Shown piece by piece: positions 19,463 through 64,000 of a stretch of DNA of 64,000 bases. Source of the stretch: Capsicum annuum (Eukaryota > Streptophyta > Magnoliopsida > Solanales > Solanaceae); the NCBI RefSeq assembly GCF_002878395.1, contig NC_061118.1, forward strand, positions 88,387,910 through 88,451,909, given 5' to 3'. Numbering within the stretch: position 1 is the first letter of the stretch; every line of letters starts with the position of its first letter. A program made the translations under genes and the position numbers. Under the pieces are notes generated by a model. It did not search any database and was not told the origin of the DNA. It saw nothing but the letters and a program-made list of their open reading frames with translations.

Positions 19463-20930
19463 TGTTACTACTATGTGCACACACAAGTGTACATGTTCCA
19501 CAAAGTAGTAAAATGGCCTTTTACAAGCCAAGTATCAATCCCATATGGAATTGTGTTAAACAACTATCCAATTCTAGTTCTACTACAAAGATTAACAAGT
19601 GCAAACGTAACACAAAAGTAATTGAGTTAAAAGTAAAAGTAAATGTAACAATACTATAAATTAAAGGTTCTTGAACAAAAGTGGGGAGAACCCAAGGTTA
19701 AGGCACTAGGAACAATCATACTAAGCTATGTAAATTTTTTGGTTAGGTTAATTATCTTGGTTGTTCGTCCATGGGGTTGATATTTTGACTATGTTATTCC
19801 GAACCTCTAATCAATTATATATCTTAGCCCTATAACTACATTGTTGAGCAGGGATGTGAGAAATAAATTAAATGCATTCATATTATATCCCATAATTGAA
19901 CCAAACATGGCTCTTAGATATATTCCTATCCTAAATGCAAATCATAAAATCATTCAATTAAGATTACAATCATATTCCATCTATCCCATGTTCTATCCTA
20001 TCATTTCTCCTTTCAGGTGTATGATAAAAGTAAGCATGTATTAAAAGGGTTGTAAATCATTAAAATAGTTTAAACAAGGATAAATAAATAACCAACAACG
20101 ATAAATGACCAAAACCAATTCAATTCATAATAAGTTCTTGGCCTTAACCCTAAAAAAGGGTGTTTAGCTGCTCATGGACATACACATAATAAAAATGGAT
20201 AAATCCATGTTATAATCCATAAATAAACTAAATTAAAGAAATTAAAACCATATTTTCATCCTTCTCAATAATTTTTAATCCCTAAGGCCGTCCAAGGTGT
20301 TAACATAAGAGTTAAAGTGTCCTATTTATACTAGGACCAAGCTTCCCATTTATTTTAGCCACCGTGGCCACCCTTTTCGTGGAGGATAGGGTTCATTAAA
20401 CACAAATACCATGAGGTTCTACTTGTTTGTCCAATTAAAAATGAATCCACGGGCGTTTCACACTCTTATCATGCCATCTAAGCAGCGTGGCACGCCAATG
20501 TGTCCAAAAGTTCCAAAATTCATTAAGCCTAGTCCATTGCATTTATCCTTCAAGTCCAAGATTTGTGGTGACCTTTTCTATTGATTTAAACCTTTTATAT
20601 CATCTAGTTATCCTCTAGATCAACTTACCTAAAATCCTACAATATCAAACACCACAAATTAGAGCTCAAAACACAATTAAATCCAACATGATGAACTAGA
20701 AAGGAACATATCTCAAGCTAAGAGTAGTAGTTTTTGTGTTTGAACTTTAACTTAATGTTTTGACTCCAAAATCATTATGATCACATCTTAAACACTAAAA
20801 TCACATAACTAAATACTTATATACTCATTTATTAAAAGGTTACAACATTATGCATATAACGTGTCCTCAAAAATAAGGTAAGTATGAATAGATAACAACA
20901 CTTAGGTTCATAAATCCAACTAAGATCATT
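19463..20930 (-). repeat. P2 3' LTR
   Basis: This is an inverted match to the P1 5' LTR. GCACACACAAGTGTAC near 19479, AGTATCAATCCCAT near 19539 and TTGGCCTTAACCCTAAAAAA near 20138 correspond to P1 10390, 10330 and 9690. It is about 1.47 kb against 1.85 kb in P1. It contains scattered open frames (19342-19659, 19841-20044) without protein similarity. Confidence 0.75.
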
Positions 20931-21218
20931 ATCCTACACTTAAAGCCTTGTTCATCCTCAAACAACTTTCAGTTTGTGCATTATATTAGTCCAAACTCCA
21001 CATTAGTAATACAAGTAAGACATTTAAGCTAGCACTACAATGACTACAAAGATAGCAAGTTATACACTAAGCATGTTATATACATTTAAAAGTTTGAGAA
21101 CACTACTTCCAAATGTCCAAACTTCACGTATTTAATCACCAAGTTTGAAAACTCATGCATATTACCCAAATAAAGAAATCTTATAAATTACCTAACTATC
21201 GTCAAATATGTGTTCTCA
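19463..21218 (-). mobile_element. P2 part 1: 3' LTR and 3' internal end of a minus-strand Athila/Tat-like element
   Basis: Read on the minus strand, 20930 down to 19463 is an LTR of the P1 family. 21218 down to 20931 is the end of the internal region, with a block GTTTGAGGATGAACAAGGC and AAGTGTAGGA, a decayed PPT just before the LTR. The element is interrupted at 21218 by the G1 array and appears to resume at 43065. The continuity across G1 is inferred from orientation, element order and the flanking pentamers, because P1 lost the matching section. Confidence 0.65.
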
Positions 21219-22160
21219 TAAAACACACTAGGTTTTTGGCCCTTAGAAAATTTCCTAAATTTTTGGTCTCTAGATAGGATACGATTAGGGAAAATAACTC
21301 GTATATTGGTATATGAGTGATATGAGTTAGTCGTATGCTGACCAGTATTGGTGATGGGTTGGATTTGGTTTTTAGAATAGGTACGACTTGGCAGGTACGA
21401 GTTGTATCGATGGATGTGGTTTGTTTGGTTACTTTATTTAATCTTAGGCTTGGTAAATTAAGTTGGATCAGAGTATAAGTGGCTCACCAAGAGCCTTAAG
21501 CTAAGGTACGAGTCATACCATGGACTCGTTTGGTACGCAGTGTTGCATCCTCCTAGGATTATATTCTGCCAGGGGTACGGATCATAGGTACTAGTTGTAT
21601 ACTTGGATACGAAATGGTTTAGGGTGAGTTAGACTTTGGATAGTGCTGGGTCTAAAGGAGATGGCCTTGGCTACAAGTAGTGTGTATTACTCATACACCT
21701 GATGGGAATTTTGGGAGTTTAAGTGAGGGCAATCCGGATATTTCCCCAGTTAATCTAACAAGGACCCAAGACTTATATTCCTATTGGGAGGTTATTTTCC
21801 CTATTATTCTATTCATTAACACTTAGAAACTTCTCTTAAACACTATATAATTCTATTCATTTCTCACTCTTCAATCCTATTTTATTTTAGTATTATATAT
21901 AATTACTATGGAATTATATGGTTATGGTTTGTGGTTTGGTTTGGCTATTTATTGGGTTTAGACGATTGGACTCGATTGGTTCAGTCTCAGTAATAGACCT
22001 ATCCCAAAGTATATAATTTGGATAGTTATGATATCTTGTTATATGTTTGAAATTTAGCTAACTCAGGGCAGGCAGTTGGAGGTTAGGTTGTGTAATGGGG
22101 GTAGTCTCTAGTCGGACTTAGGATACCTATTACAATAAGGACCTAGGTTAGTTCATGTCA
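21219..22160 (+). repeat. G1 LTR1 (shortened, 942 bases)
   Basis: It starts TAAAACACACTAGG, aligned to TGAAACACTCTGAG of LTR2, and ends GTTCATGTCA before the PBS. It shares GGATCAGAGTATAAGTGGCT and other blocks with LTR2, but lacks the roughly 1.5 kb that LTR2 has between about 27905 and 29400. Confidence 0.8.
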
Positions 22161-22163
22161 AGT

Positions 22164-22175
22164 CGGTATCAGAGA
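22164..22175 (+). promoter_or_regulatory. G1a primer-binding site
   Basis: CGGTATCAGAGA matches the tRNA-Met-type PBS TGGTATCAGAGC at 10 of 12 positions, four bases after LTR1. Confidence 0.75.
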
Positions 22176-22384
22176 TTTAGGTTTATGGTCAATTGGGAAT
22201 CCATAAAGTCGTGTGTAGTAGAGTCTCTTTTAGGGTGGTATAGCATGCCACACTTATAAGAGAGTGGCTACAGGACATTTAGTAATGTTTTACTTCCTTG
22301 GAATCCTATTTTCAAGCTATAATCTAAGTCCTAGAATTTTCTCTAATCCTTATTTATTCACTTTTTAGATCTTTCCTTATCAAT

Positions 22385-23650
22385 GTAGAATACAAGGAAA
22401 TCCTGTCGTCCTATCTGGTGATGATGCTAATGGAGGATACCCTACACATGGAGTTTGCACTCGATCTCAGGGTCCTATCCCTGATTTTTTAGGAATTCTT
22501 TTGGTTGCTACTAGTCCTTATCAAGGTGAGGTGACTAATATAGAATTTAATCAGTCGATTCATATTATTGCTTAGTTAGTTGCTGCTCGGCTAAGCGGGA
22601 TACATCTCATGTTCTATATGTGAAGACCACAATGATTGGCCAGTTCATGAAGATGAATTCTCCTACTTTTACTCATGTAAAGTTGGAGGAGGATCTTTAG
22701 GGTTTCTTTGAGGAAATGAAGAATATATTTAGAGTAATGCAGGCCACTAACGTAGAAGAAGAGAAATTTCCAACTTATCAGTAGAAAGATGTTGCATACT
22801 AATGGTTCAAGTAGTGGGATAAGGATAAAGGTGATATTGAGTAAATGTCCTTATAGGAGGCCTTTCTATTGGTTTTTAAAATTGCTTCTTTTCTTTGGAG
22901 ATAAGGGAAGCAAAGGTGCAGGAGTTTATGAATTATAAGTAGGGAGAAATGTCTGTCAAGGAATATGCCTTGAAATTTCATCAATTAACCAGGTATGATC
23001 TGAATTTGGTGGCTAATTTAAGGGCGAGGATGAGAAAGTTTACTTTTAGGCTATCTTGAGATTTAATCCTTGAAAGAAAGACTGCTTTACTGATTAAGGA
23101 TATTGATATTTTGAGGTTTGTTATCTATATACAGTAGGTGGAGGATAAAAAGTAGAAACATACAAAGTTTGAGAAAAGGCAGGGTAAGAGGACCAGGTTA
23201 TCAATATAGGGTGGTTCTCAGCAGTAGGTTGGTTGGGATTACAGTAAATGACCGAAGAAGAAATGAGGGAGTTCTAGTTCCTTCTCTACTACTAGTGCTC
23301 ATTACCCAAAGTTGTTGCATGATAGGCATCAGCAAGGTGGTGATAATTTTTGGGCATAAGGTGCCCAATCTCAGGCGAGTGAGGCACAATCATCTTCTTT
23401 GTGTCCTCCTTGCCGATTCTGTGGTTATATTTATGGGGACTTTTGCGATGAAGGGAGGGACAAATGTCTTAAAAGTGGCAAGCAAGGCCATATGCTCAGA
23501 AACTATTCGGTTGGTAGGGCTTCTTTGGGAGTGGTCAAATCTATAGTTTCATTATCTTCTATTCCTGTGCCTAGGTGGTGCAGTTTTAGTGTATTCTCCT
23601 ACTTCTAGTGCTGGCATAGGCTAGAATAAGGTTTATACTTTTGCATCTCG
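22385..23650 (+). pseudogene. G1a gag remnant
   Basis: Blocks shared with G1b gag include FMKMNSPTFT near 22650, a GEMSVKEYALKFHQL-like block near 22950, and LIKDIDILRFVIY near 23093. Stops are frequent (for example at 22699, 22783 and 22801). The open stretch 23118-23546 is out of the original frame. A zinc knuckle is still visible in 23399-23608 (CLKSGKQGHMLRNY), but its second and last Cys are lost, so RNA packaging would fail. Confidence 0.7.
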
Positions 23651-24030
23651 ACAGGAATTTAAAGTATCACCTTATGTCATGACTGGTATGTTACAACTCT
23701 TCTCTTATGATATGTATGGTTTACTTGATCTGGGATCTACTCTTTCCAATGTGTCCCTATTTGTGGCTGTATGTTTTGGTTTTGATCCTGAGGTTGTTTC
23801 TGATTCTTTTACTATTTCTACCTCGATAAGTGACTTAGCTTTTGCTAAAAAGGTTTATATGGGTTGTGTGGTATCTATTGGTATCAAGCAGACCATGGTA
23901 GATCTGTTTATGCTGGATATGGTGCATTTTGATGTTATTCTGGGGATGGATTAGTTACACTCTTGTTATGCATCCTTAGATTGTTAGACCCATAAGGTTG
24001 TCTTTAGGTTCCATGGTGAACCAGTTATAG
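23651..24030 (+). pseudogene. G1a aspartic protease remnant
   Basis: The open stretch 23679-23954 carries the retropepsin site as LLDLGST (Asp codon at 23727), then a region ending in FDVILGMD, the conserved Gypsy protease C-terminus, with a stop directly after it (23953). The protease would free Gag and Pol proteins. Confidence 0.75.
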
Positions 24031-25020
24031 AGTGGGAGGGTGGTTCCTAGCTCCTAGGGGAAGGTTTATTTCTTATCTTAGAGCCTGGAGATTATTCTCT
24101 AAAGGGTGTCTTTATCACTTGGTCCAGGTTAAAAATTCTATCTTAGAAGGCCCCTCTTTGCATTTGGTTTTGATGGTAAATGAGTTTTTTGAGGTCTTTC
24201 TGAATGATCTTTCTTATGTTCATCTCGATAGGGAAATCGAGTTTGGTATTGATTTGGTTCCTGACACTCGTCCGATATCTATTCCTCCTTATAGAATGGC
24301 TTCGGCTGAGTTGAGAGAACTTAAGGAGCAACTTAAGAATCTTCTGGATGAGGGGTTTATTGATCCTAGTATTTCCTTATGGGGTGAACCAGTGTTGTTC
24401 GTGCACAAGAAGGATGGTTCCTTTTGGATGTGCATTGACTATCGACAGTTGAATAAGGTAGCAGTCAAGAACAAGTATTCTCTTCAAATGATAGATGACT
24501 TGTTTGATCAGTTGCAAGGTTCCAAGTTATTTGTTAAGATAGAGCTTTGGTCTGGGTATCATCATCTTGAGATTAAGGAGGAGGATATCTCTAAGACAAC
24601 TTCTTGTACTCGTTATAGGCACTTTGAGTTCTTAGTTATGTCATTCAGTTTGACTAATATCCCAATAATATTTATGGAGTTGATAAAAAGGGTTTTCAGG
24701 TGGTTCTTTGATGTTTTTGTCATTGTGTTCTTTGATGACATCCTGGTTTTTTCTAACAGTGAGGTGGATTATGCCAATCACCTCTGAGTTGTGTTGCAGA
24801 CCTTGAAGGAACAACAGTTATATGCCAAGTTCTCCAAGTGTGAGTTTTGATTGGATGCTGTAACTTTCTTGGGTTATATTATTTCTAGTGAGGGTATCAT
24901 GGTGGTCCTCAAAAGGTGGCTATGGTTAAAAGGTGGCCTAGATCCATGACTCCAACTGGCATTTAAAGCTTCTTGGGTTTGGCTGGGTATTATATGCAGT
25001 TTAGGGAAAGCTTTTCTTTG
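24031..25020 (+). pseudogene. G1a reverse transcriptase remnant
   Basis: The open frame 24032-24787 (251 residues) starts in the protease-RT linker ([20 protein letters not shown]) and runs through [38 protein letters not shown] and the catalytic motif FFDD at 24728-24739 (usual FIDD). A stop follows NHL at 24785. Beyond it the thumb-connection block (TFLGYIISSEGI, then FLGLAGYY) continues with frameshifts to about 25020. This is the longest intact reading in G1. The uninterrupted block at 24975-25010 is the empty-site counterpart of the CACTA insertion in G1b. Confidence 0.85.
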
Positions 25021-25059
25021 ATAAATTTCCTTTTACTAAGTTAACTCAAAAGAAGTTAA

Positions 25060-25510
25060 AGTTTTCTTGATTAGAAGTATGTGAAGGGAGTTTTGAGAAG
25101 CTTAAGGATACGATAACTTTGGCTCTGGTTTTGTCATTACCTAAAGGTAATGACGGGTTTGTGGTTTATTGTAATGCATCTAGGGTGGGACTTGGTTGTG
25201 TTTTGATACATCATGTGAAGGTAATTGCTTATGCTTCCAGAAAGTTGAAGGTGCATGAGAGGAATTATCCAACCCATGATTTGGAGTTATTGGCGGTGGT
25301 TTTTGCTTTGAAAATATGGAGACATTATTCGTATGGAGTGCACGTAGATATCTTTTCAGATCATAAAAGTTTACAATATATGTTCACTTAGAAAGAGCTA
25401 AATCTCAAGTAGAGGAGATAGTTGGAGCTTCTTAAGGACTTTGAGACGAGTCTTCACTACCATCCAGGTAAGGATAATATTCTTGTTGATGCTCTTTATA
25501 GGTTATCCAT
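25060..25510 (+). pseudogene. G1a RNase H remnant
   Basis: The open stretch 25119-25391 contains [40 protein letters not shown] and [15 protein letters not shown], the standard Gypsy RT-associated RNase H. The first catalytic Asp is Asn here (YCNAS instead of YCDAS). A stop follows FT, and the next block (HYHPG..) lies in the same direction after further stops. Confidence 0.8.
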
Positions 25511-25749
25511 ATGGACTTTAGTTTATGTGGATACGAAAAAGAGGGAATTGTGAAGGATATTCACCGCTTGGCTAATATTGGAGTTTGTCTCTAAGACTCT
25601 GAGAATGGTGGTATATTAGTACAGGAAGTCATTCGGTCATCTTTTGGTCCAGAGATTAAGAGAAGTAAGTTCTAGATCCTATCTTGATAAAAATAAAGAG
25701 TGATGTAGGTGGGAAAAAGGTAATAGTATTCAAGATCAATGGTGATGGT

Positions 25750-26845
25750 GCTTTATGGTACCAAGAGAGGTTGTGTGTCCCTGACGTCGATGGGTTGCAA
25801 CAAATGATTTTGGCTAAGGCACATTAATCGAACTATATTGTTCATCCTAGTTTGGCAAAGATATATTATTATCTCAAGGAAATATATTGGTGGAAAGGTA
25901 TGAAAAGGGACGTGGTTGATTTTATGGCCAAGTGCATGGTGTGTCAACAAGTTAAAGTTGAACATAAGAGGCCTGGAAGGTTGTATCAAGAAATTGACTT
26001 GACCCAATGGAAATAGAAGTTGATCAATAAGATTTTTTTACCAGTCATCCTCGATCGTGGAACCAATTTAATTCAATTTGGGTCATCGTGGATAAGATAA
26101 TGAAGTCTTCTCACTTCTTACCAATAAAGACTACCTTTATGGTGGAGGATTATATGAAGTTGTATCTTTAGGAGGTTGTGAAGTTACATGGGGTACTTGT
26201 TTTGATTATCTCTGATCATAGTACATAATTTTTATCTCATTTTCAGTGTTTTTTCAGAAAGGATTGGGTACTAAGGTCTTTTTGAGTACTGCTTTTCATC
26301 CTCAGACAGATAGGTAAGTGAAAAAGAATATTCAGACCTTAGAGGATATGCTTTGGGCATGTGTTATTTATTATGGTGGAAATTGGGTTAAGCATCTATC
26401 TTTGGTAGAGTTTTCTTTCAATAATAGCTATCATTCTAGTATTGGGATGACCCTTTTTAAGGCATTATATCGTAAGAGGTGTAGGTTTCCTATTGGTCAG
26501 TTTGAGCTTGATGAGGCAGACATGCTTGGTTTGGATTTGGTTTATCAGGCTATGGAGAAGGTAAAGGTGATTTTGAATTGGCTTAAGGATGATCAAAGTC
26601 TCCAAAAATCCTTTGAGGATGTAAGGCATAGAGACTTAGAGTTTGAGGTTAGGGATAAGGTATTCCTAAAGGTATCTCCCATGAAGGGTGTAATGTTGTT
26701 TTATAAGAAAGGGAAGCTCAGTCCCCGATTTGTCGATCCTTATGAGATTTGGCGGATGGTAGATAATGTTGCTTATGAATTAGAGTTACCTTCTAGTTTA
26801 AGGTCCATCCATCTGGTATTTCATGTCTCCATGTTGTAGAAGTGT
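25750..26845 (+). pseudogene. G1a integrase remnant
   Basis: The H2C2 zinc-binding region is at about 25818-25955 (ends KCMVCQQVKVEHKRPG). The catalytic core follows with VDKIMKSSHFLPIKTTFMVE and a broken SD motif near 26213. The position of the catalytic Glu (GQxERT in relatives) reads as Lys after a stop near 26313. The open frame 26318-26839 holds the end of the core and the C-terminal part (FEVRDKVFLKVSPMKGVM). The site D-D-E is therefore incomplete. Confidence 0.75.
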
Positions 26846-27090
26846 CTTGGTGATCCTTCTTCGGTTATTCCCTTGAAGGGCTTGGGTATCTTGGATTCCC
26901 TATCTTATGAAGAGATTCCAATTGTAATCTTGGATAGGCAAGTTCATCGGTTATAGACAAGGGATGTGACTTTGATTAAGGTTCTATGGCAGAACCACAA
27001 GGTGGAAGATGCTACATAGAAAGCGGAGGAGGATATGAAGTCCAAGTATCCGCATCTGTTTTCTACTTCTGGGATTCTTATGGAAGGTAT
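26846..27090 (+). pseudogene. G1a integrase C-terminal, chromodomain-like tail
   Basis: Reading across stops gives LSYEEIPIVILDRQVHRL and KVLWQNHKVEDAT, the tail found after integrase in Tekay/Del-like chromoviruses, which is thought to guide insertion to particular chromatin. It ends with the block KYPHLFS near 27055. Stops lie at about 26838, 26955 and 27016. Confidence 0.6.
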
Positions 27091-27258
27091 GTATTCTTGA
27101 ACACACCTTTATTTTCTGAGTTTGTTATAGGAAAGATTAATATCCTTGTATTTGGGATTCCTAACTTAGTAAAGGTTGGATTGATATTTGATAATGCAAA
27201 TGAATCGTGCTTATGGTTACCCTACCTTGTCCATTATTCAGAGATGAATGTTCATAAT

Positions 27259-27267
27259 AGGGGAGAC
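27259..27267 (+). promoter_or_regulatory. G1a polypurine tract
   Basis: AGGGGAGAC lies directly before the TG of LTR2 and after GAATGTTCATAAT. The same arrangement, GGGGGAGAC, precedes LTR3. Confidence 0.8.
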
Positions 27268-29700
27268 TGAAACACTCTGAGTTTCTGGCAATAGAAATTT
27301 CCTAGATTTTTCACCTCTGGGTAGGATAAGACTAGGGGAAATAACTCATACACTGGGATACAAGTGGTATGAGTTAGTCATATACTGACTACTGTTGGTT
27401 GATGGGTTGGATTTGGTTTATGGAATGGATAGTCGTATTGGTTGATACGAGTTGTTTGGTTAATTTATTTAATCTTAGATTTGGTAACTTAAGTTGGATC
27501 AGAGTATAAGTGGCTCACCAAGAGCCGTAAGCTAAGGTACGAGTCGTTCTATTGACTTATTTGGTGGGCAGTGTTACATCCTCCTGGGATTATATTCTGC
27601 CAGGGGTATGGATCATGGGTACTAGTCATATACTTGGATACAAAATAGTTTGGGGTGAGTCATACTTTGGATAGTGGTTGGTCTAAGGGTGATGCCCTTA
27701 GTTAGAAGTAGTAGGTACTACTCATACTGGAAGGTACGACTACCCACCTTATGGGAATTTTTGGAGTTTAAGTGAGATCAATGTGGATATTTCCCCACTT
27801 AACCTATAAGTCCCGATGATTTATATTCCTATTGGGAGGGTATTTTCTCTATTATTCTATTCACTAACATTTAGAAACTTCTTTTAAACACTCTACATTT
27901 CTCTCTAAGGATTTTGAGTAAAGAAAGGCTAGGGTTTTATCTTAAGGGTTAATTTGGGGCTTGTGTTGGTGATTTATCTCCATCATCTTCTTGGTTTAAG
28001 GCATTTTCTCTTCCCTTATTGTTAGTTCCAACTAAAGGCATGGTTTTATTCAATGTTTTCATGGTTTGATTATTGGATAGTTTTGGATTTTCAAATATAA
28101 TTTGGGGTTTTTTGTTATAAATGCTTGGTTATGGTTTACCCATGTTTTAATTATGCCTTTATATGCTTTAATGGTGGTTTTGGATAATTGGTTATATGTG
28201 AATGGTTATTTGGTAATTGGCTTTGGTTTTGGAAATACTATGCGCCCAGTATGTTTGATAAAATGCCTCTGAGAATGTTTTCACTACATTATTGGATTTT
28301 AATGGAACTTATGCATGGTTTGAACTTGGTAATAGGACCCTAAATGGTTAAATGGTTTGGAATGGTCAAAATGGAATGGTTTTGGTCTAACAATCATTCT
28401 TGTGGGGTACAATGGAATCCCCCAATTAATAATAACAATGGAGCACTTTTGAGGTACATGGCACTCCTCCAAGTTAATTGGTAATGTGATCTATAGGTAC
28501 ATGGGACTCCCTAGATCTCAAAAAGGTTTGTCTAAGGAAAATACTTGCAATTTATAGTTGGTATGCCGATACCACTATATATAGCCTTGGTTAATAACAA
28601 TGATTGGTTGGAAATAGTTTTAATTGGGCAATAATGGCAGGGTGTGATAGCTAACCGTGAAGGTAGGAGTTTAATAAACGACCACTGGAAACTCATATTT
28701 GCCGACATGAGGGGTAGGTCATGGTGACCTTATATGTTACTATGAGGTACATGGGAATCCTCTACGTACACTGTACATATGTATCATGAACGATAAGGGT
28801 ACTTGGGAATCCCTACTCTAATGGTCTCTTTAGTCTATGCTTCTATATGTATCAAGGCCTGGTCAGGGGTTACACTGGACCTATGTAGCCCGTGGGTGGT
28901 TAAGGATGGTTAAGCTTCACATACCTAGGAAAATAGTTTTAAATGCATGCTAAACTGATTCCCTTTCTTGGCATGGTTATATATATATATGGATTGTATG
29001 CATATAGTTAGCTTACTTGGTTTTACTGGTTGGCATCATTTTATCCTTATCCTGAGTTCATGCTAGCGTTCACCCACTAACCCATCTTTGGGAAACTATA
29101 TCCCCACGTGATACGGGAACCAACCATTCTACTCCTCCTGCTTAGCTAAAGGACATTCGGGATTAAATACTGGATTGAAGTGGTGACCTTCCATCCTTCC
29201 ATAAGGCTCTATTTTATGAAAATTATCTCATACTTTGTTTCATTCATGGATATTAGTTTTTGCTATGGTTGAGGGTATGTCCCAATTGAATTTTGGTATT
29301 CTTTTGGTTTGAGGCTTTTATGGAACTACAATGGGTTGGTATGGATGGGATCATTATTGGTGTCATCCTTGGTATTGGGCCTTTTACCGGTGGACTAAAT
29401 TTCTAACTCTTCCATCCTATTTTATTTTGAGATTATATATAACTATTACAGAACTCATATGGTTATGGTTTGTGGTTTGGTTTGGCTATTGATTAGGTTC
29501 AGACGATTGGACACGATTGGATTGATCTCAGTAATAGACCTATCCTAGAGTCTATAATTTGGATAGTTTTGATATCTTGTTATATGTTCAAAATTCATCC
29601 AACTCAGAGCAGGCAGTTAGAGGTTGGTTTAGGAATGGGGGTAGTCTCTGGTCAGACTTGGGACACCCATTACGAGAAAGCCCCAAGTCAGGCCATGTCA
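27268..29700 (+). repeat. G1 LTR2 (full length, 2433 bases; shared by both copies)
   Basis: It begins TGAAACACTCTGAG and ends GGCCATGTCA, flanked by a PPT on the left and a PBS on the right, so it serves as 3' LTR of G1a and 5' LTR of G1b. It holds the complete LTR. The 27905-29170 part is absent from both other LTRs, with different break points. A short TATATATATA run lies at 28980-28990. No gene is seen. Confidence 0.85.
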
Positions 29701-29703
29701 AGT

Positions 29704-29715
29704 TGGTATTAGAGA
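29704..29715 (+). promoter_or_regulatory. G1b primer-binding site
   Basis: TGGTATTAGAGA matches TGGTATCAGAGC at 10 of 12 positions, just inside LTR2. Confidence 0.75.
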
Positions 29716-29889
29716 TTTAAGTTCATGGTCAATTAAGAGTCCATAAAGCTATGTCTATTAGAGTCTCTTTTAGGGGTGTGTACCATGCCACACTCATAAG
29801 AGAGAGGCTACAGGATATTTAAAAATGCTTCACTTTCTTGGTATTCGATTTTCAAGCTGGAGTCTAAGACATGAAATTTTCTCTAATCA

Positions 29890-31670: not shown

Positions 31671-31679
31671 TCGGAAGGT

Positions 31680-48874: not shown

Positions 48875-48878
48875 AAGA

Positions 48879-50150: not shown

Positions 50151-50179
50151 ACTTGCTTGCTTGAAAGTAACTACCAAAT

Positions 50180-51700: not shown

Positions 51701-52490
51701 ATGAATAGGAATACTTTGTAGAACATGCTTGATTAAAATGGCTCTACCCCAAAAGATAGTAACTTGCCTTTCCAAATTCATAATTTGTTGCTTGTTCTAT
51801 TCATTGTAGTCTGATATTAATCCTTCTTCTTCCTCATGTAAAATTTTGGGCATCCTAAGTATTTAAAGGGAAAATCATGTCTCAATATCCCTGTAACTAC
51901 CTCTGTCATTACTACTGTACAACTAGACACTCCTTTATGCATTAATAAAACAATTTTATCTTAATTTATCTTCTATCCATAAACCCTTTCATATTTGTCC
52001 AATATAGCTGTTACCATAAGCAAAGTTCCTACCTCAGCCTTGCATAATATAATCATGTCATCTGCAAAGGCTAGATGATTAATTTTATGACTTCCCCTTA
52101 GAATTCAAAGTAGCTTGAAGTTCTTCTAGAGTAACAAGGACTTCAAACCTTTAGATAACACTTCATCTGCTAAAATAAATAAAGTAGGAGATTATAGATC
52201 TCCTTACTTCAATCCTCTTGAGGATTTAAAAAATCCTTTTGGTTTCCCCTTTAACAATATTAAATACTAATTTTTTACAAGTAACCTGAACTCCAAATCA
52301 GTAATTTCTTCACAAAAACCTATCCTTCTTAAGACTTTAGTAAGAAATAGCCACTCTACCATATCATAGGCTTTCATTACGTCTAGCTTCATAACCATAT
52401 TAGGAGGATTTCCTATTTTTCATATTTCTAACATTATGTCCTATACTATTAATATGTTTTCTGCAATACTTTTTCTTTGTACAAAACTAG
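51700..52490 (-). pseudogene. LINE-2 reverse transcriptase remnant
   Basis: The minus strand reads MVMKLDVMKAYDMVEWLFLT (near 52400-52340), KPKGFFKSSRGLK, NHLAFADDMIILCKAEVGTL and HDFPFKYLGCPKFYMRKKK. The catalytic FADD is intact at 52057-52068, unlike in LINE-1. Many stops remain. The upstream part of RT is cut at 52490. Confidence 0.8.
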
Positions 52491-52507: not shown

Positions 52508-53640
52508 GTTCAACTCCAAGAGTTCAAACCCGGTCTAGGGTTATTGCTTCTGATTGTCCTGATAAAATTCCACCAGTTTCCCCTATCCCTCATTATGAAC
52601 CCCAGGCTAGCGTATCTAATGTTGGGCTTTGCTAGTTGATTCGTTTGCTTACCTAGTTGGTGGCCTCTTATACTGAGAATGTTTCTTCTGTTGCTTCATC
52701 ATATGAGGCCACTAGAGTTAGCCAATTCATGATGCTGGGTTCTCCTGTTTTCACTGGTTCTAGGGTTGAGGAAGATCCATAAAATTTTATTCATGAGATA
52801 GAAAAGATCTTCTGTGTGATGCATACTACTGATGTGGAAGGGGTAAAGTACACAACATATTAGTCGAAGGATGGGGCATACCAATGGTATGAAGAGTGTG
52901 AACAATATAGGGGAGACGATGTTGAGTATTCCTTGTGGGATGATTTCTCTAATGCTTTCCTTTGTTTATTATTTCCTCAAGAGTTGAGGGAGACGAAGGT
53001 TGAGGGATTTTTGAATTTGAATTAAGTTAGGATGTCAGTAGAGTGAAGTATTATTAGCTGTCGTGTTATGCTCCTGAATTAGTGTCTAGCATGAGAGCTA
53101 GAATGAGGAAGTTTGCTTCGGGGTTGTCTCATGAGTTGATCTTGGAGAGCAAGGCTGCCTTGTTAAATAAGGATATGGACATTGCTATACTTGTGTGTAT
53201 ATATAAGTTGAAGAAGAAAAGAAAAAGCAAGAGAAAATAAGTGAAATGCAGAATAAGAAGTTTGGCTATTCAGATTAGGGTAGAGGTCAGCAGTAGAGTG
53301 GTAGAGATGGTGAAAAGTGGTCTAAAAAGAAGTGGAGCAGTTCTTGTTCCTACTCTATGGCTAGTGATCGTTACCCAAAGTTATTAGGTGATCATCATTC
53401 TCAACATGATAGTGGGTTTACAGCACTAGGAGCCCAGTCACATGCTGATGGGGCTCAGTTAGCTCTATGATATCCTCCTAGTAGATTCTCTGATCAAGTG
53501 CATCATGACGTTTGTGAAGAGGGGAGGAACAAGTGCTTTAAATGTTTTTAGATTGGTCATAAGCAAAGGGATTGTCCTTCTAAGGTTGCTTCTGGGACAA
53601 ATAAGATTCCCATTACTGCTTCATTAGTTCCCATACCAAA
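52508..53640 (+). pseudogene. G2 gag, C-terminal part
   Basis: Blocks include PPVSPIPHYEPQ near 52570, QFMMLGSPVFTGSRVEEDP near 52725-52780 and FPQELRETKVEGFLNLN near 52975. The zinc knuckle CFKCF-IGHKQRDC (about 53532-53575) keeps all three Cys and the His but has a stop inside. The following block PKGATYASVSSTVRNCLYTL leads into the protease. Confidence 0.75.
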
Positions 53641-54322
53641 AGGTGCTACTTATGCTTCCGTCTCTAGCACTGTTCGAAATTGTTTATACACTCTTGCTAC
53701 TTGCCAGGATTCTGATACTTCCCCTGATATTGTTACTGGTATGCTCAAACTCTTTTCTCATGAAGTATATTGTCTACTTGATCCGGGGTCTACTTTTTTT
53801 TATGCGACCCCTTATGTGGCAATCTATTTTGGTTTTGATCCTAAGTGTATTTTTGACCCCTTTTCTGTGTCCACTCCTGTGGGTGTCTCCATTATGGCTA
53901 GAAGGGTCTATAGAGGTTATGTAATGTTGGTCCATTGTAGGGAGACCTTGGTAAATCTAATAGATCTGGATATGTTAGACTTTGATGTGATTTTTGGTTG
54001 GATTGGTTGTATTCGTGCTATGTGTCTCTTGATGGTCTTACCTAAGGGGTCAGTTACCATTTCCCAAATGAGACAATGATCAAAAGATAAGGTAATTACC
54101 TAGTACCTAAGGGAAAGTTCATGTTGTATCTTAAAGCCCAAAAATTAGTTTCCAATGGGTACCTTTATCACTTAGTGTATGTTAAGGATTCGAGATCCAA
54201 AGGTCCTCCTTTTTCAGACTATCCCTATGGTCTATGAATTTCCCATGGTGTTTTTTGATGATCTTCTTGGTATCCTTCCTGATAGGGAAATTGATTTTGG
54301 GATTGATATTTTTCCTACCAGT
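53641..54322 (+). pseudogene. G2 aspartic protease and protease-RT linker, cut by deletion
   Basis: The open frame 53741-54079 has the active-site block CLLDPGST (Asp codon at 53780) and FDVIFG, matching the LGMD end of the protease with changes. The linker FPMVFFDDLLGILPDREIDF reads to about 54318, where RT would begin. Instead the sequence joins the middle of an LTR at 54323. Confidence 0.75.
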
Positions 54323-55007
54323 GTTGAGCTACATAATCCAGGCTAAAGTTTGAAAGAGCATGTTAAGCCTTGTTCCGTATCCCGGTATGTGATATATATA
54401 TGTATGGATATGTATTTGATTGTGAATTGATTTTGAATGATTTTGAACTATTGATATTCGCATTATGTTATCCTTATACCTAAGTTACATGCTAGTGTTC
54501 ACTCCACTAACTATATCCTGATGAAGTATCCCCATGCAATGCCGGATCAAGAGCTACTTCTAGTTTTCCTGTGCAGAGATAGTTCGGTCAACTTGGTTTA
54601 TTTTGTTGTGGTAAAGTGATGAGATTCCAACAAGCTTTCATTCTTAGATTTTAGTTGATATATACTTTCATTATCATTAACATTATCATTTTCATTCTCA
54701 TGGTCATATGTCAGAGTCGGGGACATGTCCCGACCAAAACTGGTTTTGGTTTCTTTTTTAGAAGGCTTTGTTTGGATTACTGTGGATATTGGTGATGTTG
54801 ATTAGTTGTTTGGCCGGTAATCAGTCATCGGTTATAGAAATGTTTTGACTTTCCTTAAGCTTGTTGCATGCTATCTTGTTATATGTTTGGATTTTATCTG
54901 ACATTAGGGGATGTTGTGTTTGGTTATGTTAGCTCCAAGGGGTGATCCCTGGTCCACGTAGGACTTGAGATATCCATCACGGCCAGACCCTGTTTCGGGT
55001 TGTGACA
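54323..55007 (+). repeat. G2 3' LTR remnant (685 bases)
   Basis: It aligns with 48165-48874 of the 5' LTR: GTTGAGCTACA..ATCCAGGCTAAAG, ATGTGATATATA and TATCTTGTTATATGTTTGGA in both. The first roughly 1.56 kb is missing together with pol. It ends GGGTTGTGACA. Confidence 0.8.
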
Positions 55008-57492
55008 GGATCATTAACAAAGCTACCACAAATTACCCATAACTAGGATTATACCAATAATTATAATAATAGAAACGATAATGTGAGTAACCGGCCAGTC
55101 CAAATAAAAAAATACCTAACCGAGACTTTCATAAACCCCCACTGCCCCAGGCTCAGAAGGTCCAACAACATAAAAGACACCACAAACCATACTCATCACC
55201 CATACCTATGAAACCCCCCATAATGTTGATAGATATAGATGTATACTGGTGAAAAGCAATGAGCACGCACGATTGAATGCCTAGATAAAATCCTTAATAC
55301 AAAAACCGATCAAAAAACCATAAGTAACCTAGGGTATAACCTCACATCATCAGTATCATAATCATTCATTGCACTCAAACAGATAAATATAATAAATATC
55401 TGCACTTAAACTTGTAAATATACTATCAATATCCGAACTTGATTCGGTAAATATATAATTGCATGCATAATAAATAAGGTCTCTAAATCGTGGCAAGAGC
55501 GTAAGTCTATAAATACATTTCGCGGGTAAACTAAATATCGTAATAGTGTAGAAAGGGGTCAGAATATCTCTCGACTGGGGTAAATAGTAATAATACAATC
55601 GTGGACTAAAATCTATTTTGGTCAAATCTCCAAATCAACATTTTAGTCTCAAAGGATCGTAAGTATTCATTAATATGGTACGATTACCGTTATGAATAAA
55701 TCTGTTTAACTTGTGAAAAGTGGGATTTTTGCCCTTTTTAAGAAAAACAGTAGTAGAATAATAATTTAGTTGGAATCATACCATTTACCGTATTTAGTGA
55801 TCATGAATGTACAAAATCTATGCATGTCATCACTAATATTCAAACAATGAAATCATAAACATCAATATGTCGATAAGCTAAAACAATTTTCTCGATAAGG
55901 ATGGAATTCTTCCTGGAAACGAACCAATCAATATCAGGAACATGGACTGCGACCCAAGAATATATCCGAAAATAGCTACAACATCATAATCCTGGGAAAA
56001 TCATCATAATCCACCTAGTAATACATAAGAATTTCTAAGGATTCATTAGTCTCATGTATAACTAATTTGCTAACAACCTAGGGTAATAGGATTGTAGAGG
56101 TATAATAAGTATTTCAACTTAAGGGTCAAATACTCTTCTAGTCCCCAAGCTCACAATATAGGCTGTCACGATGTATTACACAAAATTACATCCTAACATT
56201 CCTATCTAACACGCAGCATATATAACACATCATCTAAAGAGAAGAGTAGACAGAAGCCTACCTTGAAGTCAAACCACAAATCCTTAATTCATCCACAAAA
56301 CACCCGTATTCACTCCACGATCTCAAAATGCCGCAACGCTATAAAAATCACAATCCATGCGTCATTAATAGTAAAACAATATCCATATTATTATTTTAAG
56401 GGTTGGATCAAAATTTGGGTTAAGAAAGAGCCTACGGGGCCCATAAATGGAATCAAAAATTAAACTCGTCAATAGGTCCCTCGAAGGATATGGGAGTTGT
56501 GTGCAAAAGTTAAGAACTAATAGAGTACAATTAGGTTCTAACATAAACCCTTAAAGTTTTGGAATACAAAGCCCTAAATTCTAAGAATTTATCAATAAAT
56601 CAAAGGAATCTTACCATGAATTCTAAGGAAAATCACGAAATAATCATTTACCAAGCTCCCCAAATCATCTAAAAGCTTCAATTCCAAGCTCTCTAAAATT
56701 CTAGGGTTTAGTTCTCTTGAAAATAGATGAGAAAATGGCAAAACGGAGCTGAAAAGGGGGTATTTATACCCATCCCAGCCACACGGGTGTCGCTATCGCG
56801 GCTCGACTATCGCGATATATTGTAGCTGCACGAAGAATTCGCTATCGTGGCCAAAATCATCACTATTGTGATACTTTGGGCTGCACAAATGAGTCACTAT
56901 AGTGCCCAAAATCATCACTATCATGATACTTTGGCATGCACATTGGAGTCGCTATCGTGTAAAAAATCATCGCTATCGCGATGCACTAGATGTAATAATA
57001 GACTTGGAATTTTCCAAGTCTCTGCTAAGCCCTGGGGATTCATCCGTAATCTTGTATACAGAAATGAACTATGTAGCCCTATCAAATGTGAAGTTTTGGA
57101 CTCAATGATGTAGTCAAAATTTTCATCCGAGGTCGTTTCACAAAGAGTGGGTCCCACACCTAATTTCTATTTTCTTAACTTTTCGACTAATATCTCAAAA
57201 TGAGCCCAGTTGCCTCATGACCCAAACCAAAAGTCTACCTAGCCTAAAATCAAAATTTCAAAGCTAATGGCGTTGTTGGAATTCTCATCCGAGGTCATCT
57301 ACTAGGAGTTTTGGTTTAAGACCAAATCCTAAGAAACAAAATCCCCAAAATAGAAAAGTGAGCATAAAATCCAAACAGACTGTCTTATCATCGAACCGAT
57401 TGTTTTGACAAGTCCTAAATGACCTGTAGCCACAGTGGAGAGGCTTAAAATACTAAAAATGCGTGCAAATGACTTGGAGGGTCCCTATAATA
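55008..57492 (-). repeat. G3 3' LTR, part 2
   Basis: It continues the alignment with the second G3 LTR (62220 onward): CCCCAGGCTCAGAAGGTCCA at 55145 and 62355, and ACAACCTAGGGTAATAG at 56074 and 63281. With part 1 the LTR totals about 3.48 kb. The minus-strand start is at 57492, next to a purine tract. It contains tandem repeats (56787-56993). Open frames such as 56263-56463 are chance. Confidence 0.8.
56787..56993. repeat. Tandem repeat of about 55 bases, nearly four units, in the G3 LTR
   Basis: Units begin GTCGCTATCGCGGCTC, TCGCTATCGTGGCCAAAATC, TCACTATAGTGCCCAAAATC and TCGCTATCGTGTAAAAAATC, each followed by CGCTATCGCGATA-like or TCACTATCATGATAC-like sequence. The words TATCGCGATA and TATCATGATA are palindromic. 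The other LTR shows its first unit at about 63964 before the window ends. Confidence 0.8.
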
Positions 57493-57508
57493 TCCACCAT
57501 TAAAAGGA
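57493..57508 (-). promoter_or_regulatory. G3 polypurine tract region
   Basis: The minus strand reads CCTTTTAATGGTGGA immediately before the LTR start TATTATAGGGAC. The block GAACGAAAGTCC just upstream resembles the usual Gypsy GGACGAA block at the end of the internal region. Confidence 0.55.
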
Positions 57509-60179
57509 CTTTCGTTCATGAAAGTCAATGGACATAAAAATCTCAAAAGATCCAAAGGATGAGGTGCTGGGCCCGCATACTCCGAGTATAACTTCCTAGA
57601 TAACTTTTAATAAAAGAGAACACTTCCAAGGGACTTCACATAGGTATCCCCTTTTCAACTATCTCTCTTATCTTACTTCCAAATAGCCTAAACTCAACCT
57701 CCACCATCGTTCATCTCCAATCGAATTGAAGAACGTTTATACATGTAAATTTGAACAACGACACACTGATACCATCTCGATACATGCACAAATCAACAAA
57801 GGCTCATCCAAGAAAAAAGAAAACCAAGGCTTAAGTCATATAACCAATCCCACTAAAAATATAACCTTTATTTACCATTCCACACCTGCTATCTACCTCA
57901 AACTAGAAGGAAAATCACCTGAGTCATGCCTGCAAATTCTCATTTCAGAAAACTTAGGGAACCAAAACTCATATATTGAAAGTCCATACAAAAAACAGGA
58001 GAAAAAGCCTATGCGGAGCTACCTGGTCTCACAACATAGATAACCGAGGGATGCAATCTAAGCTAATGCTGCAACTAGTTTGAATAATCCTCAAAAATAA
58101 AATCTAGTAGTCCAAGCACAACTACTTATCACTAAACGATCCATTCTAGGATATCAAGGGAAGCTGATCAAACTCAAGTATACCTCTTTCACTGAGTATA
58201 TAGTCTAAGAATCTCAAAGAAAACTGGAGACCCAAGGTCAAAGATAACGTGACCAATACCGGGCCCATAGACGATCATCTGAACACCTATTAATTAAAAT
58301 TTACCCAAACATACGAAGACCAAATAGGTAACAACAGAGTAGGATCAACTAGCCGACAAATGAAATCCTAACCGAGACAAATCTAAAAATAGTGAACTCA
58401 CTCAAGCTCTACAACTCCAAGCTAAAATCTCAACACCAAGGCTGAACTACTCGATCTTAATTACCAAACAAAACCTGATGATGGGTAAGCATTCATATTC
58501 TAGATCTATCATAACTTCCAAATCACCATTCCAAGGCATCAAATCAAAATTGATCGAATAAGTCTAAACTAAGGTCAAATACTTAAATCAACCATATTGT
58601 CCGAATCAGACATATCCATACTAAATCATGTCGAGCTGAAATCAAAATATAACTAAAGAACATTATCGCAATAGAGGATACATCACTAGCCACAAAAATA
58701 AGAAATCAACTCTATATCGGTAGGTGGGCATGAACCACCAAGACATACTTGAGAACTTACCAAGGCTACAAATTGCACTAGCAATATAAAAAACTCTAAC
58801 AACTCAAAGAAATGCAAATTAAGAAAAAACCCAATTAATCAAATACCCTATCTCAATAAGGAACACTTATAAACACAGAAAACCAAGGAGAAGCCCTCCA
58901 TCAAGTATTATTAGGCTGAACAAATTCTGAAATAAGGGTTTCTTGAATCCACCGAATTAGATCAATCATAACTCAATCAACACATGAATAACCTCATCAA
59001 GGAAGAAGGTACCAAGCCAGAAACCTATGTCAAGGTCAAGGCCACTACAAAAAATGAAGCAATAACTCAAGAAGCGGGCATAGAAAAGACCATCTGTCTC
59101 TAACTTTTTAACTCCACTTTAGACAAGAACCACATCACAACAAGAAAGGAGTATCCAATCTACACACTAGTACCAAGATCAAACTATCAAAAGGAGATGA
59201 ATCCATCAAATCTAAGAGATGAATCCAAGACATCTCAATATTAATATTAAAGCCACTATCGAGCGATAAAATATCTATAAGCTAAAAACGAACCCTAAAT
59301 TGGTCAATTTTAAAAATGAGCTACATAGACAGGGATAGCCAAAACAAAAGCCTTTATAATCCAAGAAACAAGTCCAAGAATCCCAAATTCGAGAATGGGT
59401 GATATAGCTAATTGCCAACTCTAGAATCCTAACAAAAACACAGAAGGTCAACATACTTTTAATACCATAGTCCACTCCACAATCAATCTATCATAGACAA
59501 CAAAAGAGTAGAACAATTAACCTCACCTCGCTATAAAAGAGAAATCATCCAACTAAGCTATAGCTACCAAAGACAATGAATAATAATCACATAGAAGGGA
59601 AAATTCTAACTTAAAAACACTTGTCAAATCATTTATCAAGAGAGAATCAACTACCTCAAACAATGATAATAATAATAACAATAATGCCGATAATACTAAT
59701 CAGCAATATAAGTATCAATATAAGGAACATGTGGCACCCAAAAGGAAAATCAATAGCGGACACTATTCAAGGGCCACAATAAGTCCAATATACCAAGGTA
59801 AATAAAACTTAAACTCAAATACTACACCCAAGGGAAAATATTAATACTGATCTCCTCCATCCACTACTAAAAGAAATCATCCATAGGGTAGCCATATAAT
59901 CATGAATTTAACAACATGGAACACACCAACCAATACAAATTTATCAAGGAATTTAATCATTGATGGGTACGAAAACCCAAGTACACAAAAATAAAAAGGT
60001 AAATTCAGGAGATAAAAGCACACCTATCATGGTGAAATTCACAATCACATGCCTGATGAGTCTAAGGGAGAATAAACTAAATGGGTCCAAACTCAAACTG
60101 ACTGACTGATTCATTAATTAAGGTACTAAAGACTCTATTGCCAACTAATAGGGTCACAACACTATGAGACTAATACACA

Positions 60180-61200
60180 TGAGATAAATAACCAATAATC
60201 CTATGCTGGGGACACTCTCTAGACCAATGTCCCATCTCGCCACAACTAAAACAAGTTCAAGGTATACTCTGAGGTACTGCCCTTCCTAATCCAGAATGGC
60301 TTCCATGGCCAGAAACCATACCAAAATCTCAGAAAGGTCTAATGAGAACTCTGCCCACTATGACCACCATGACTAATCTGAGAGCCACCTATAGTATGAA
60401 ATGCTAATTGTATATAACTGATAAGCTGCAAGTGAAGGTGAGCTCCACCAAAAAAATCCTCACTCTCAAATGAAATACCAATAGCACTACTCTGATGGCA
60501 TGGTCTCTTAATGCCACCTCTATAAGTCTCAATATATGCTCTCTCTATAATCCTCGAATGATCAACAACCCGAGTGAAGTAAGACCCAGTTTCTATCAAG
60601 TGCTCTAATACTAAGAGAAGTGACGATGTTGATCCTCCTATAAATCCATGCACCATGTCCTACATTGAAAAATATAGCATAGGAATATGCCTGACATACT
60701 CAAAAAACCTAATCTCATATTATGAAACTGACAAAAAACTCTGTTGAACACCAATAAATCCAAATCTCTCCTGAGAACTGCTCAAGGAACTGCTTATTAT
60801 CCCTGGCTGTGAGGTATCTATAAAGAGACTTGGGATTCCTAAAGCCAAACATCAAAGGGTTGAAGTAGTCACAAGCTCTACCAAAACTTGGGTTAGCCCA
60901 AATCCTCTCACTGACACTGAATATCTTTGACATCTATCTATGAATCCTTGGTTTGATGCTGCACTAAAGCTCTAGAAATGTATACCAAAGTCTTGTTTGT
61001 ATCTATCAACATCCTTGCATCACCCATATGGGATGGAATAAAGTCAATGAATGTACTTGAGGCTGATATGAATATAGACAAACAATAAGGAGTCAAGAAA
61101 TAAATTTCCTAAAAATGACCTATAGCCTCCAGAAGATAGGTTACAAATATCTCTGCATCGATTTTCAGGACTTTAATAGACATTTAGATCTTGTAGAAAC
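60180..61200 (-). pseudogene. G3 gag remnant with intact CCHC knuckle
   Basis: Readings in several minus-strand frames are FFEYVRHIPMLYF near 60700-60660, GGSTSSLLLVLEHLIETGSY (open 60656-60339) and a basic GGIKRPCHQSS block. The zinc knuckle CFSCGEMGHWSREC is intact at 60253-60212. The N-terminal half (open 60933-60715) is frame-shifted. Gag order and knuckle match Gypsy chromoviruses. Confidence 0.7.
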
Positions 61201-61213
61201 ACCAGTAAACCTG

Positions 61214-61225
61214 AATCTGATACCA
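61214..61225 (-). promoter_or_regulatory. G3 primer-binding site
   Basis: The minus strand reads TGGTATCAGATT, 10 of 12 matches to TGGTATCAGAGC, three bases inside the 5' LTR end at 61229. Confidence 0.75.
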
Positions 61226-61228
61226 ATA

Positions 61229-64000
61229 CGTCAAGACCTAATTTCTCAGGTCATAATGGTGGCTACTTTAACCCACCAGTAGGAAAGCTAATTTTGTAGT
61301 TTGAAACTACTAAAAATGGACTACCAAGAGAAATAAAGGGAATAATGCAGAATAGATGAAATAAAAAACTAACATATATAAGATAAATCCAAAACTAGGT
61401 AAAATTAGTACAAGAGCTTCTATTACCAGTGGGGATACAAATGAGGTACATAATGAATATACAGATACAACTATCTCTGAATACAACCTAGATATTTGTC
61501 TAGTACATAAGAGAGACAAAAGTAATACTCCTAATACCAGAAGCTCACATTATATCTCTAAACTATAGTTGCTTCGTACGATGCACCCAACAATGCTAAT
61601 AGCCTATACTATGATCAACAGGCTGTAGAAGTATAGGATGAGTATCAACACATGGTACCCGATAGGTAAATTTTTGACTAAGCTCCAAAGATAATGAAAA
61701 TACATAACATGTAAGCAAAAATGTAAACTACACCCTAATATCTAACAACTGCATCAAAAAGCTAAAGAGATGATATGGATAAACTATCTTATTCAGGTCC
61801 AAGAAACTAATATAATAAGGCTAAAGAGGTATTAAGAATGAACTATTCCATTCTAGCCATACGCAGGAACCTCAACACTATATTGTATATTGATGGCCAA
61901 TAAAAGTAAGGGTCAAAGAAGATGTATTTAAGTATACAAAGCCAAGGAATGGATATACAATCTGAATAAGTAAAAGAAAGAAGGGATGTACGGTAATACC
62001 AGAGCTACAAATAAATAGATATACATATGTACATGAGTAAGGTCAACTCGTAATACAACCTAAAGCATTTGATTGGTATCTTAAGACCTCGTACTTATAG
62101 CCAGAACTAGTTCTAGTATATCTGGGTTTCTAATCCATCCATCTAATTCTGAGATAATCATGCATGATAGAATAATCATTATATAAAAGAGCCAGAATCA
62201 TACCTCAAGTATCAATACTGGATCATTAAAAAGTTATCATAATTTATCCATAACAAGGATTATAACAATAATATAACAATAACAATAACAATATGAGTAA
62301 TCAACCAGTCTAAACAAATAATGCCTAATCAATACTTTCATGAACCCCCTTACCCCAGGCTCAGAAGGTCCAACTAACGTACATCACACCAAAAGCAATA
62401 CTCATCACCTATACTTATGCATCCCCCCATAAGGATGATAGATATAGGAGCATACCGGTCTTTAGAAATATGCATACAAGAATGAATGCCCAGATATTGT
62501 TCGTAAACCACAAATGATTAAAAAACCATAAGTAACCTAGTGTATAACCTCATATCATCATTATCAAATTCATCCTTTAGACTCAAACAATAAAATAATT
62601 AATACCAAACTTGAATCAGTAGATAAATAATCAATATCCAGACTTGAACTTGTAAATATATAACTCCATATATAGTAAGTGCACAAACTTTGAACCATGT
62701 CTAAAAGAGTGCAAGTTCATAAATCCATTACCCGGGTATACTCTGAACCAAATAAGCAGAAAAGTATAAAGGCGTCGGAATATCTCCCAACAGGGGTAAA
62801 TGGTATTAATACATTCATGGACTTGAATCTATCTCAATCAAATCTTCAAATCATTATTTTTAGTATCATGGATCATAAGTATTTCTTAAGATGGTACGAT
62901 TCCCATTGTTAATAAATCTATTTAAAAGGTGAAAAGTGGGATTTTTATCTCTTTTAGTGATCATAAATGTACCGCATCTATGTATGCGATCACCAGTATT
63001 CAAGCAAAGAAATCATAAATGTTAACATGTCAATAAAATACAAAAATTTTCTCTATAAAGATAGTATACTTCACAAAACTGAATCAATCAATGTTATGAA
63101 CATGGCCTCTAACCCAAGAATATATCCAAAAATACCTACAACATCATAATCATGGCCTTAAGCCCAAATGTATATTTGGCATAATCATAACATCAAAATT
63201 TGAGGAAAACCATCATAATCCATCGAGTAATACATAAGCATTTCTAAGGTTCATTACTTTCATACACAACTAATTTTCTAACAACCTAGGGTAATAGTAT
63301 TATAGAGGTATAATATGTATTTCAACTTAATGGTCAAATACCTTTCTAGCCACGAAGCTCATAATTTAGGCTAAGTAACGGTGTACTACCAATAATTACA
63401 TACTAACATTCCTATCTAATATGACATACATAAAACATCATCTCAAGAGAAGAGTTGATAGAAGCCTATCTCGAAGCAAACCACAAATCCTTATTTCATC
63501 CATAAAATGTCCGTCTTCACCCAACGATCTCAAAATGCCGCCATAATATCAAAATCATCCCATATTTCTATATTAAGGGTCGAATCAAAATTCAGGTTAA
63601 GAATAGGCCCACGGGGAGCATAAATAAAATCCAAAACTAAACCCTTCATGAGGTCCCTTGAAGAATAAGAGAATTATACTCAAAAGTTGAGCATAAATGG
63701 AGTACAATTCGGGTCACAAATAAACCTTTAATATTTAGGGATTTAAAGCCCTAATTTCTAAGAACTTATCAAGAAATTGAAGGAATCTTACCATGAATTT
63801 GAAGGGAAATCACTGAATAATCATTAACAAAGCTCTCCAAATCATTTATAAGATTTAATCCCAAGCTCTCTCAACTTCTAGGGTTTAGTTCTCTTGGAAA
63901 TTGATGAGAAAATGGCCAAAAGGTCTGAAAAAAGGGTATTTATACCCATCACAGGCACTCAGGTGTCGTTATCATGATATATTATAACTATTCCATAATT
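61229..64000 (-). repeat. G3 5' LTR (runs off the right edge)
   Basis: It aligns over its whole length with 45604-46603 plus 55008-56800. It is uninterrupted at the point where G2 entered the other LTR (62220), so it serves as the empty-site reference. The window ends shortly before the LTR would reach its minus-strand start (about 0.7 kb more by comparison with the 3' LTR). Confidence 0.8.

Follow-up and report, generated by a model that had tools for sequence, protein, structure and literature searches.

A 64,000-nucleotide stretch of the Capsicum annuum genome (contig NC_061118.1, positions 88,387,910 to 88,451,909; hereafter the window) contains, on the evidence of its sequence, decayed plant transposable elements stacked one inside another. 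Nesting is present at three junctions, where an element with long terminal repeats (LTRs), G2, sits in an LTR of another, G3; a long interspersed nuclear element, LINE-2, sits in G2; and a CACTA transposon sits in G1b, the second unit of a G1/G1b array with three LTRs and two internal regions. In the wider history that we consider likely, an old minus-strand LTR element, P2, would have received two LTR-element insertions, the Ty3-type tandem array and G3. Measured in 2-kb steps the GC content is 0.31-0.40, making the window AT-rich; its longest stop-free stretch is 255 codons, and self-blastn (repeats of at least 60 bases, E up to 1e-8) returned 22 repeat pairs. They comprise LINE-1/LINE-2, P1 (plus strand)/P2 (minus strand), matches among G1, G1b and the more distantly related G2, both LTR pairs (those of G2 and of G3) and a few short pairs, among them one match between a stretch of the CACTA element and its own complement.

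For each insert the flanks were joined across it and aligned to an uninterrupted relative in the window (empty-site test). The joined flanks of G2 (100+100 bases, including five G2 bases seen as an alignment gap) aligned at 159/192 positions (82.8%) to the uncut G3 LTR at 62130-62321, which reads ACTGGATCATTAA, i.e. GGATC, at the insertion site; G2 itself (46604-55007) is flanked by GAATC/GGATC within the 3' LTR of G3. We place G3 on the minus strand because a primer-site-like stretch, TGGTATCAGA (61225-61216), lies just inside the LTR starting at 61229. Around the CACTA element, the joined flanks aligned to G1 24897-25093 at 167 of 197 positions (84.8%), ATA/ATA (32526-32528, 39741-39743) borders the insert and its ends are CACTACTAAAAAA; inverted ends with a 3-bp duplication indicate a CACTA transposon. 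The flanks of LINE-2 meet in G1/G1b: the left one aligns as far as 30005 of G1b and 22421 of G1 and the right one from 29991 and 22451, at ~64-67% identity; in G1b the left alignment runs 28 bases past the duplication, and this end of it is probably chance. The LINE-2 duplication matches at 16/20 positions (49141-49160/52491-52510), which 2 of 300 random window pairs equalled. A prior interpretation made from the letters alone (the sequence-only reading) had proposed all three insertions, and each is borne out; the four duplications it named (TCTCA/ACTCA, GAATC/GGATC, a 17-base pair at LINE-2 and ATA) are all present.

Could these signals be chance, or joins made in assembly? The short duplications taken alone would allow it, with random-pair P values of ~0.02 each for GAATC/GGATC and ATA/ATA and ~0.022 for TCTCA/ACTCA, uncorrected and leaving out the freedom in placing borders, yet element ends, duplications and empty-site alignments agree within a few bases at three junctions, and we regard this explanation as extremely improbable. 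From the junctions that pass the empty-site test it follows that G3 came before G2 and G2 before LINE-2, and that G1 came before CACTA. The 3' LTR of G3 was struck by G2 and the G2 gag then by the LINE, and the array was struck later by CACTA, between the second reverse transcriptase (RT) and RNase H. To this extent the relative ages given in the sequence-only reading stand; its placing of P2 as the oldest element is retained as the best reading only.

Divergence between LTR pairs, which had been put forward as a check on this order, neither supported nor refuted it. The G2 LTRs differ at 126/677 sites (0.186, 18.6%) and the G3 LTRs at 532/2680 (0.199, 19.9%; P = 0.48), with Kimura two-parameter distances of 0.217 (0.176-0.261) for G2 and 0.216 (0.186-0.251) and 0.245 (0.217-0.275) for the parts of G3. 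The window holds only one P2 LTR, leaving P2 undated, and LINE-2 and CACTA are without LTRs. Because LTR divergence is uninformative here and P2 has a single LTR, the insertion order is carried by nesting alone and not by an LTR clock. A survey of nested pairs counted 1042 of 4126 in which the inner element had the higher LTR divergence, so that LTR divergence often fails on order (PMC7251063); at this locus the inner pair (G2) is slightly less diverged than the outer (G3), not significantly. The stack illustrates that LTR divergence cannot order insertions close in time, whereas nesting can.

G1 and G1b together form an LTR-internal-LTR-internal-LTR layout (21219-43064), with three LTRs (a, b and c) and two internals collinear on the same strand. 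TCTCA (21214-21218) and ACTCA (43065-43069), alike at four of five positions, bracket the whole array, and no duplication of its own was found at LTR b, where the five preceding bases matched at no more than three of five positions over 17 offsets around the LTR b end. GGGGAGAC precedes both LTR b and LTR c, and a GGTATTAGAGA-like, primer-site-like stretch follows LTR b, as it does LTR a; we take these to be the polypurine tract and the primer-binding site (PBS). LTR b is the long form, and the parts of it missing from LTR a and from LTR c overlap without being the same. The possibility that 27903-29141 is an insert in LTR b was ruled out, since the G2 5' LTR (47335-48405) matches LTR b 27900-29140 (E 2.2e-23, single-sequence search), and the segment absent from LTRs a and c is therefore old LTR material. 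The simplest reading of G1 and G1b is a single tandem insertion, one integration with three LTRs and one 5-bp duplication, so that there would be one insertion event fewer than the element names imply.

The internals of the array differ at 1000/5047 ungapped sites (19.8%), and the LTR pairs at 121/746 (ab, 16.2%), 138/718 (ac, the outer pair, 19.2%) and 194/955 (bc, 20.3%), the divergence of ac and bc not being different from that of the internals (P = 0.73 and 0.72, respectively). The likeness of internals to outer LTRs suggests that the array dates from its insertion or shortly afterwards, barring a joining of two copies that had already diverged. Either its LTRs underwent unequal crossing-over shortly after insertion or it was inserted as a tandem, and the data do not separate the two. 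Insertion as a ready-made tandem, in a single retrotransposition event and not by later crossing-over, is a tentative proposal that we would sooner doubt than accept; it draws on the equal divergence of internals and outer LTRs, which a late crossover would not give. No crossover mosaic was found in the left part of LTR b (divergence K: ab 0.193, ac 0.203, bc 0.211), and in the right part of the LTRs ab is closest (0.178 vs 0.275 and 0.233), with overlapping intervals. Internals that equal or exceed the LTRs in divergence (19.8% vs 16.2-20.3%), as with two family members, and the different deletions in the outer LTRs would also fit two separate insertions of the same family, whose facing LTRs (3' in the first element, 5' in the second) recombined, with loss of the intervening DNA, and left a common LTR. 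Outer flanks from two target sites need not match, yet here they do at 4/5 (P ~0.02), and two such insertions seem to us distinctly unlikely compared with one tandem integration.

The P2 3' LTR, whose end at 19463 was placed by comparison with the P1 LTR end, and the internal region at 43507-45602 match P1 at 62-71%, and the latter match breaks off at 45602, with the G3 LTR beginning at the next base. We infer that the P2 pieces flanking the array are one element, that G3 landed inside it and that the array is one integration; P2 before G1 and P2 before G3 is the best reading, drawn from the 4/5 duplication and a one-sided homology.

A number of observations weigh against this history. All comparisons were made within the window's own copies. 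No P1 counterpart was detected for the 292 bases (20927-21218) or the 442 bases (43065-43506) beside the array; P1 is the sole other P copy in the window, and the array-adjoining P2 flank lacks a P1 partner for a rejoined alignment. The flank 20850-21218 scored 342.5 against P1, where 50 shuffles reached up to 358.5, and although the flank 43071-43650 scored 587.5 (shuffles at most 499.5), blastn extends its match with P1 no further than 43507. The far (right) flank of G3 is beyond the window end, which leaves the P2-G3 homology one-sided. The array duplication matches at only four of five bases, with borders placed with some freedom, and divergence is lower in the ab LTR pair than between the internals (P = 0.02), which one common start for all copies does not predict. 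Finally, the excess of pooled G3 over G2 divergence is in the predicted direction and not significant, so that ages leave the order open. Lenient-gap alignments of the P2 flanks to P1 were long and gap-rich and were discarded; the joined pair scored 830 without a shuffle control, and no claim is made from it. The profiles used to search for the LTR and the internal region of P had been made out of the same pieces that they then returned; these self-matches were set aside, and only the single-sequence searches made alongside were used.

Because the stretches adjoining the array were not matched to P2, we hold the whole reading, including the histories of P2, the array and G3 as proposed, to be likely and no firmer, and give weight to the rival in which 19463-20926 and 43507-45602 are pieces of two different P elements with the array between them. 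This rival is favored by the 292 and 442 bases without P1 counterpart and by rejoined flanks that gave no informative alignment, but the pieces are on the same strand and in the right order (internal, then 3' LTR), and neither is more than half a kilobase from the array, with its 4/5 duplication; we judge it unlikely. The sequence-only claim that G1 splits the single element P2 thus keeps order, strand and TCTCA/ACTCA in its favor and lacks support from the adjoining bases, and the claimed split by G3 has the end of the P1 match behind it on the one side of G3 that the window contains. The rejoining of flanks suggested in the same reading was accordingly informative at the G2, LINE-2 and CACTA junctions and not at that of P2 and G1.

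Nested insertion and tandem arrays are already in print, and no first report is claimed; what the locus adds is the tandem array, the minus strand of G3, and an order carried by nesting and not by the LTR clock. According to a 2025 study of tandem LTR retrotransposons in rice and other plants, such arrays have one short duplication around them and none inside (PMC11899658). The array here resembles the tandems described there in its two internals and three LTRs, and its imperfect (4/5) outer duplication may be a further likeness; those are mostly of gypsy type, and one rice case also lies inside another transposon (MULE). In that study, 80% of rice tandems are >95% identical in their LTRs and the TLI1 case has LTRs of 85-89% (PMC11899658), whereas the array at this locus is much older (LTR pairs ~80-84% identical overall), two of its three LTRs have deletions and its second unit holds CACTA. 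The timing of tandem formation is left open in that study, and the locus is one data point: old tandem arrays may be readable as dated events, in that internal-internal against outer-LTR divergence tells a tandem at insertion from one formed much later. Nested plant LTR retrotransposons are well described, in work that gives LTRs as not commonly targeted (PMC6911290); LTR elements inside LTR elements agree with it, and G2 differs in sitting in an LTR, one case that is no contradiction. The locus is a clear but ordinary example of plant genome growth.

Table 1. Coordinates of the features in the window, from position 19463 to its end.
Feature	Positions	Strand	Remarks
P2 3' LTR (putative outermost element)	19463..20926	-	66% to P1 9603-10410, 66% to 8943-9092, 62% to 8566-8821
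Presumed P2 internal 3' end	20927..21218	-	Position only; TCTCA 21214-21218
LTR a of G1/G1b tandem	21219..22160	+	Lacks ~1.5 kb
First internal region (G1): protease, RT, RNase H, SH3_Tf2-1	22161..27267	+	Pfam; protease via match to G2 RVP_2 piece
LTR b, common middle LTR, longest copy (2.4 kb)	27268..29700	+	
Second internal region (G1b), 5' part with RT	29701..32528	+	RVT_1 5.6e-15; gag match under cut-off; ATA 32526-32528
CACTA element parting the G1b RT from its RNase H	32529..39740	.	CACTACTAAAAAA ends; ATA 39741-39743 next; Transpos_assoc 2.2e-13
SINE-like copy 1 in CACTA	33282..33360	+	
SINE-like copy 2 in CACTA	33759..33837	-	Opposite strand to copy 1
MITE-like fold-back in CACTA, marginal	33883..34001	.	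Arms 33883-33911 / 33973-34001
G1b internal 3' part: RNase H, integrase-like, chromodomain-like	39741..42016	+	75% to G1 RNase H piece
LTR c of tandem	42017..43064	+	Lacks ~1.3 kb; ACTCA 43065-43069 next
Presumed P2 internal part	43070..43506	-	Position only
P2 internal	43507..45602	-	63-71% to P1 12011-13941; frames compared
G3 3' LTR, first piece	45603..46603	-	81.6% to 61230-62223; GAATC 46599-46603
G2 5' LTR (end approximate)	46604..48873	+	
LINE-2 in G2 gag	49161..52490	-	66% to LINE-1 2658-3923; RVT_1 0.015, below cut-off
G2 gag-protease remainder, most of pol missing	52511..54322	+	RVP_2 3.7e-10
G2 3' LTR remnant	54323..55007	+	81.4% to 48165-48868; GGATC 55008-55012 next
G3 3' LTR, second piece (LTR may reach further)	55013..56797	-	79.3% to 62224-63973
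Remainder of G3 as far as the 5' LTR	56798..61228	-	PBS-like stretch 61225-61216
G3 5' LTR, runs off window	61229..64000	-	

The domain order of G1 (RVT_1 1.1e-13, RT_RNaseH 1.2e-26, SH3_Tf2-1 3.6e-21, all above Pfam cut-offs), with RT and RNase H ahead of the integrase C-terminal domain, points to a Ty3/gypsy element. In G1b the RT exceeds its Pfam cut-off and the gag, SH3_Tf2-1 and chromodomain matches fall below theirs (Chromo 2.5e-5, 24.5 bits, cut-off 25.1); no Pfam match was obtained for the integrase-like piece of G1b (40758-40991), nor a Pfam chromodomain match for the G1 piece 26840-26953. G1/G1b may be chromoviruses, perhaps of the Tekay/Del-like lineage, the Chromo match of G1b having stayed below its cut-off.

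Of the 14 stop-free pieces of the CACTA element scanned with Pfam, only Transpos_assoc (a transposase-associated domain) exceeded the cut-off; the transposase proper was not found among them, decayed or shorter pieces falling outside the scan. All seven occurrences in the window of the subterminal motif GAGACCTC and all four of GAGGTCTC lie inside the element, but only 8/21 of the shorter GAGGTC, 4/7 of AGGTCTC and 10/16 of GACCTC do so (exact matches, plus strand). The short interspersed elements (SINEs) that had been proposed inside it are supported as two inverted SINE-like copies scoring 46 (maximum of 30 in 300 shuffles), the SINE type, which would point to a nightshade relative, being our assumption, while the proposed miniature inverted-repeat transposable element (MITE) is a marginal fold-back (30 against a null maximum of 28). 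In the sequence-only reading their putative host is an intron of the CACTA element.

G2 consists of a long 5' LTR, gag and protease, followed directly by the last 685 bases of the 3' LTR. Only residues 7-89 of the G1 RT piece match it, which lie ahead of the RT domain (Pfam match from residue 128), and the RNase H and integrase pieces had no match in G2. None of nine protein pieces tried matched the G3 interior, and none of its four stop-free pieces was above a Pfam cut-off (a weak DUF5844 match reached 0.0014, 19.4 bits vs 25). A 55-base repeat of 2.7 copies (56827-56977) lies just past the end of the G3 LTR match. LINE-1, the relative of LINE-2 at 1276-5000 on the plus strand, has a 226-codon stretch matching RVT_1 (9.9e-28).

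P1 has a gag match, and the RT, RNase H and integrase pieces of G1/G1b found no match in P1 or P2 at E up to 0.05, a threshold that a strongly decayed RT could escape. We take Athila/Tat-type and gag-only (TR-GAG) elements as the comparison for P1 and P2, for a likeness that consists of the P1 gag match and of protease-like and PBS-like stretches that we assume to be such; the piece 45116-45346 of the presumably protease-like P2 internal region had no Pfam match. Unlike Athila/Tat elements, which are recognized by an RT of that lineage, neither P1 nor P2 gave an RT or integrase match. P1 may also fail as a control, because a very diverged direct repeat pair (14104-15595/17923-19185, 59.5% identical, K ~0.61), which may be the LTR pair of an older element lying beyond P1, begins soon after the P1-P2 match ends (13941).

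The sole Rfam family above cut-off in the window is snoR71 (11059-11169, minus strand, 44.6 bits, cut-off 40, full model), antisense to P1 sequence that separates two pieces of the gag region (frame SSGKTTRLHSEIVSFK...). This plant small nucleolar RNA model may be picking up retrotransposon gag; no literature joining snoR71 with a retrotransposon was found in one paper library. Just outside the P2 LTR end, 19355-19462 is Ty3 gag-like, with a weak G2 gag match (E 0.011) and no Pfam match, and P2 may therefore itself sit in an older element. A repeat shared by the P1 LTR (9056-9226) and the stretch beside P2 (19189-19350; 172 columns, 84% identity) may be a small mobile element, since the P2 LTR has no clear counterpart of it.

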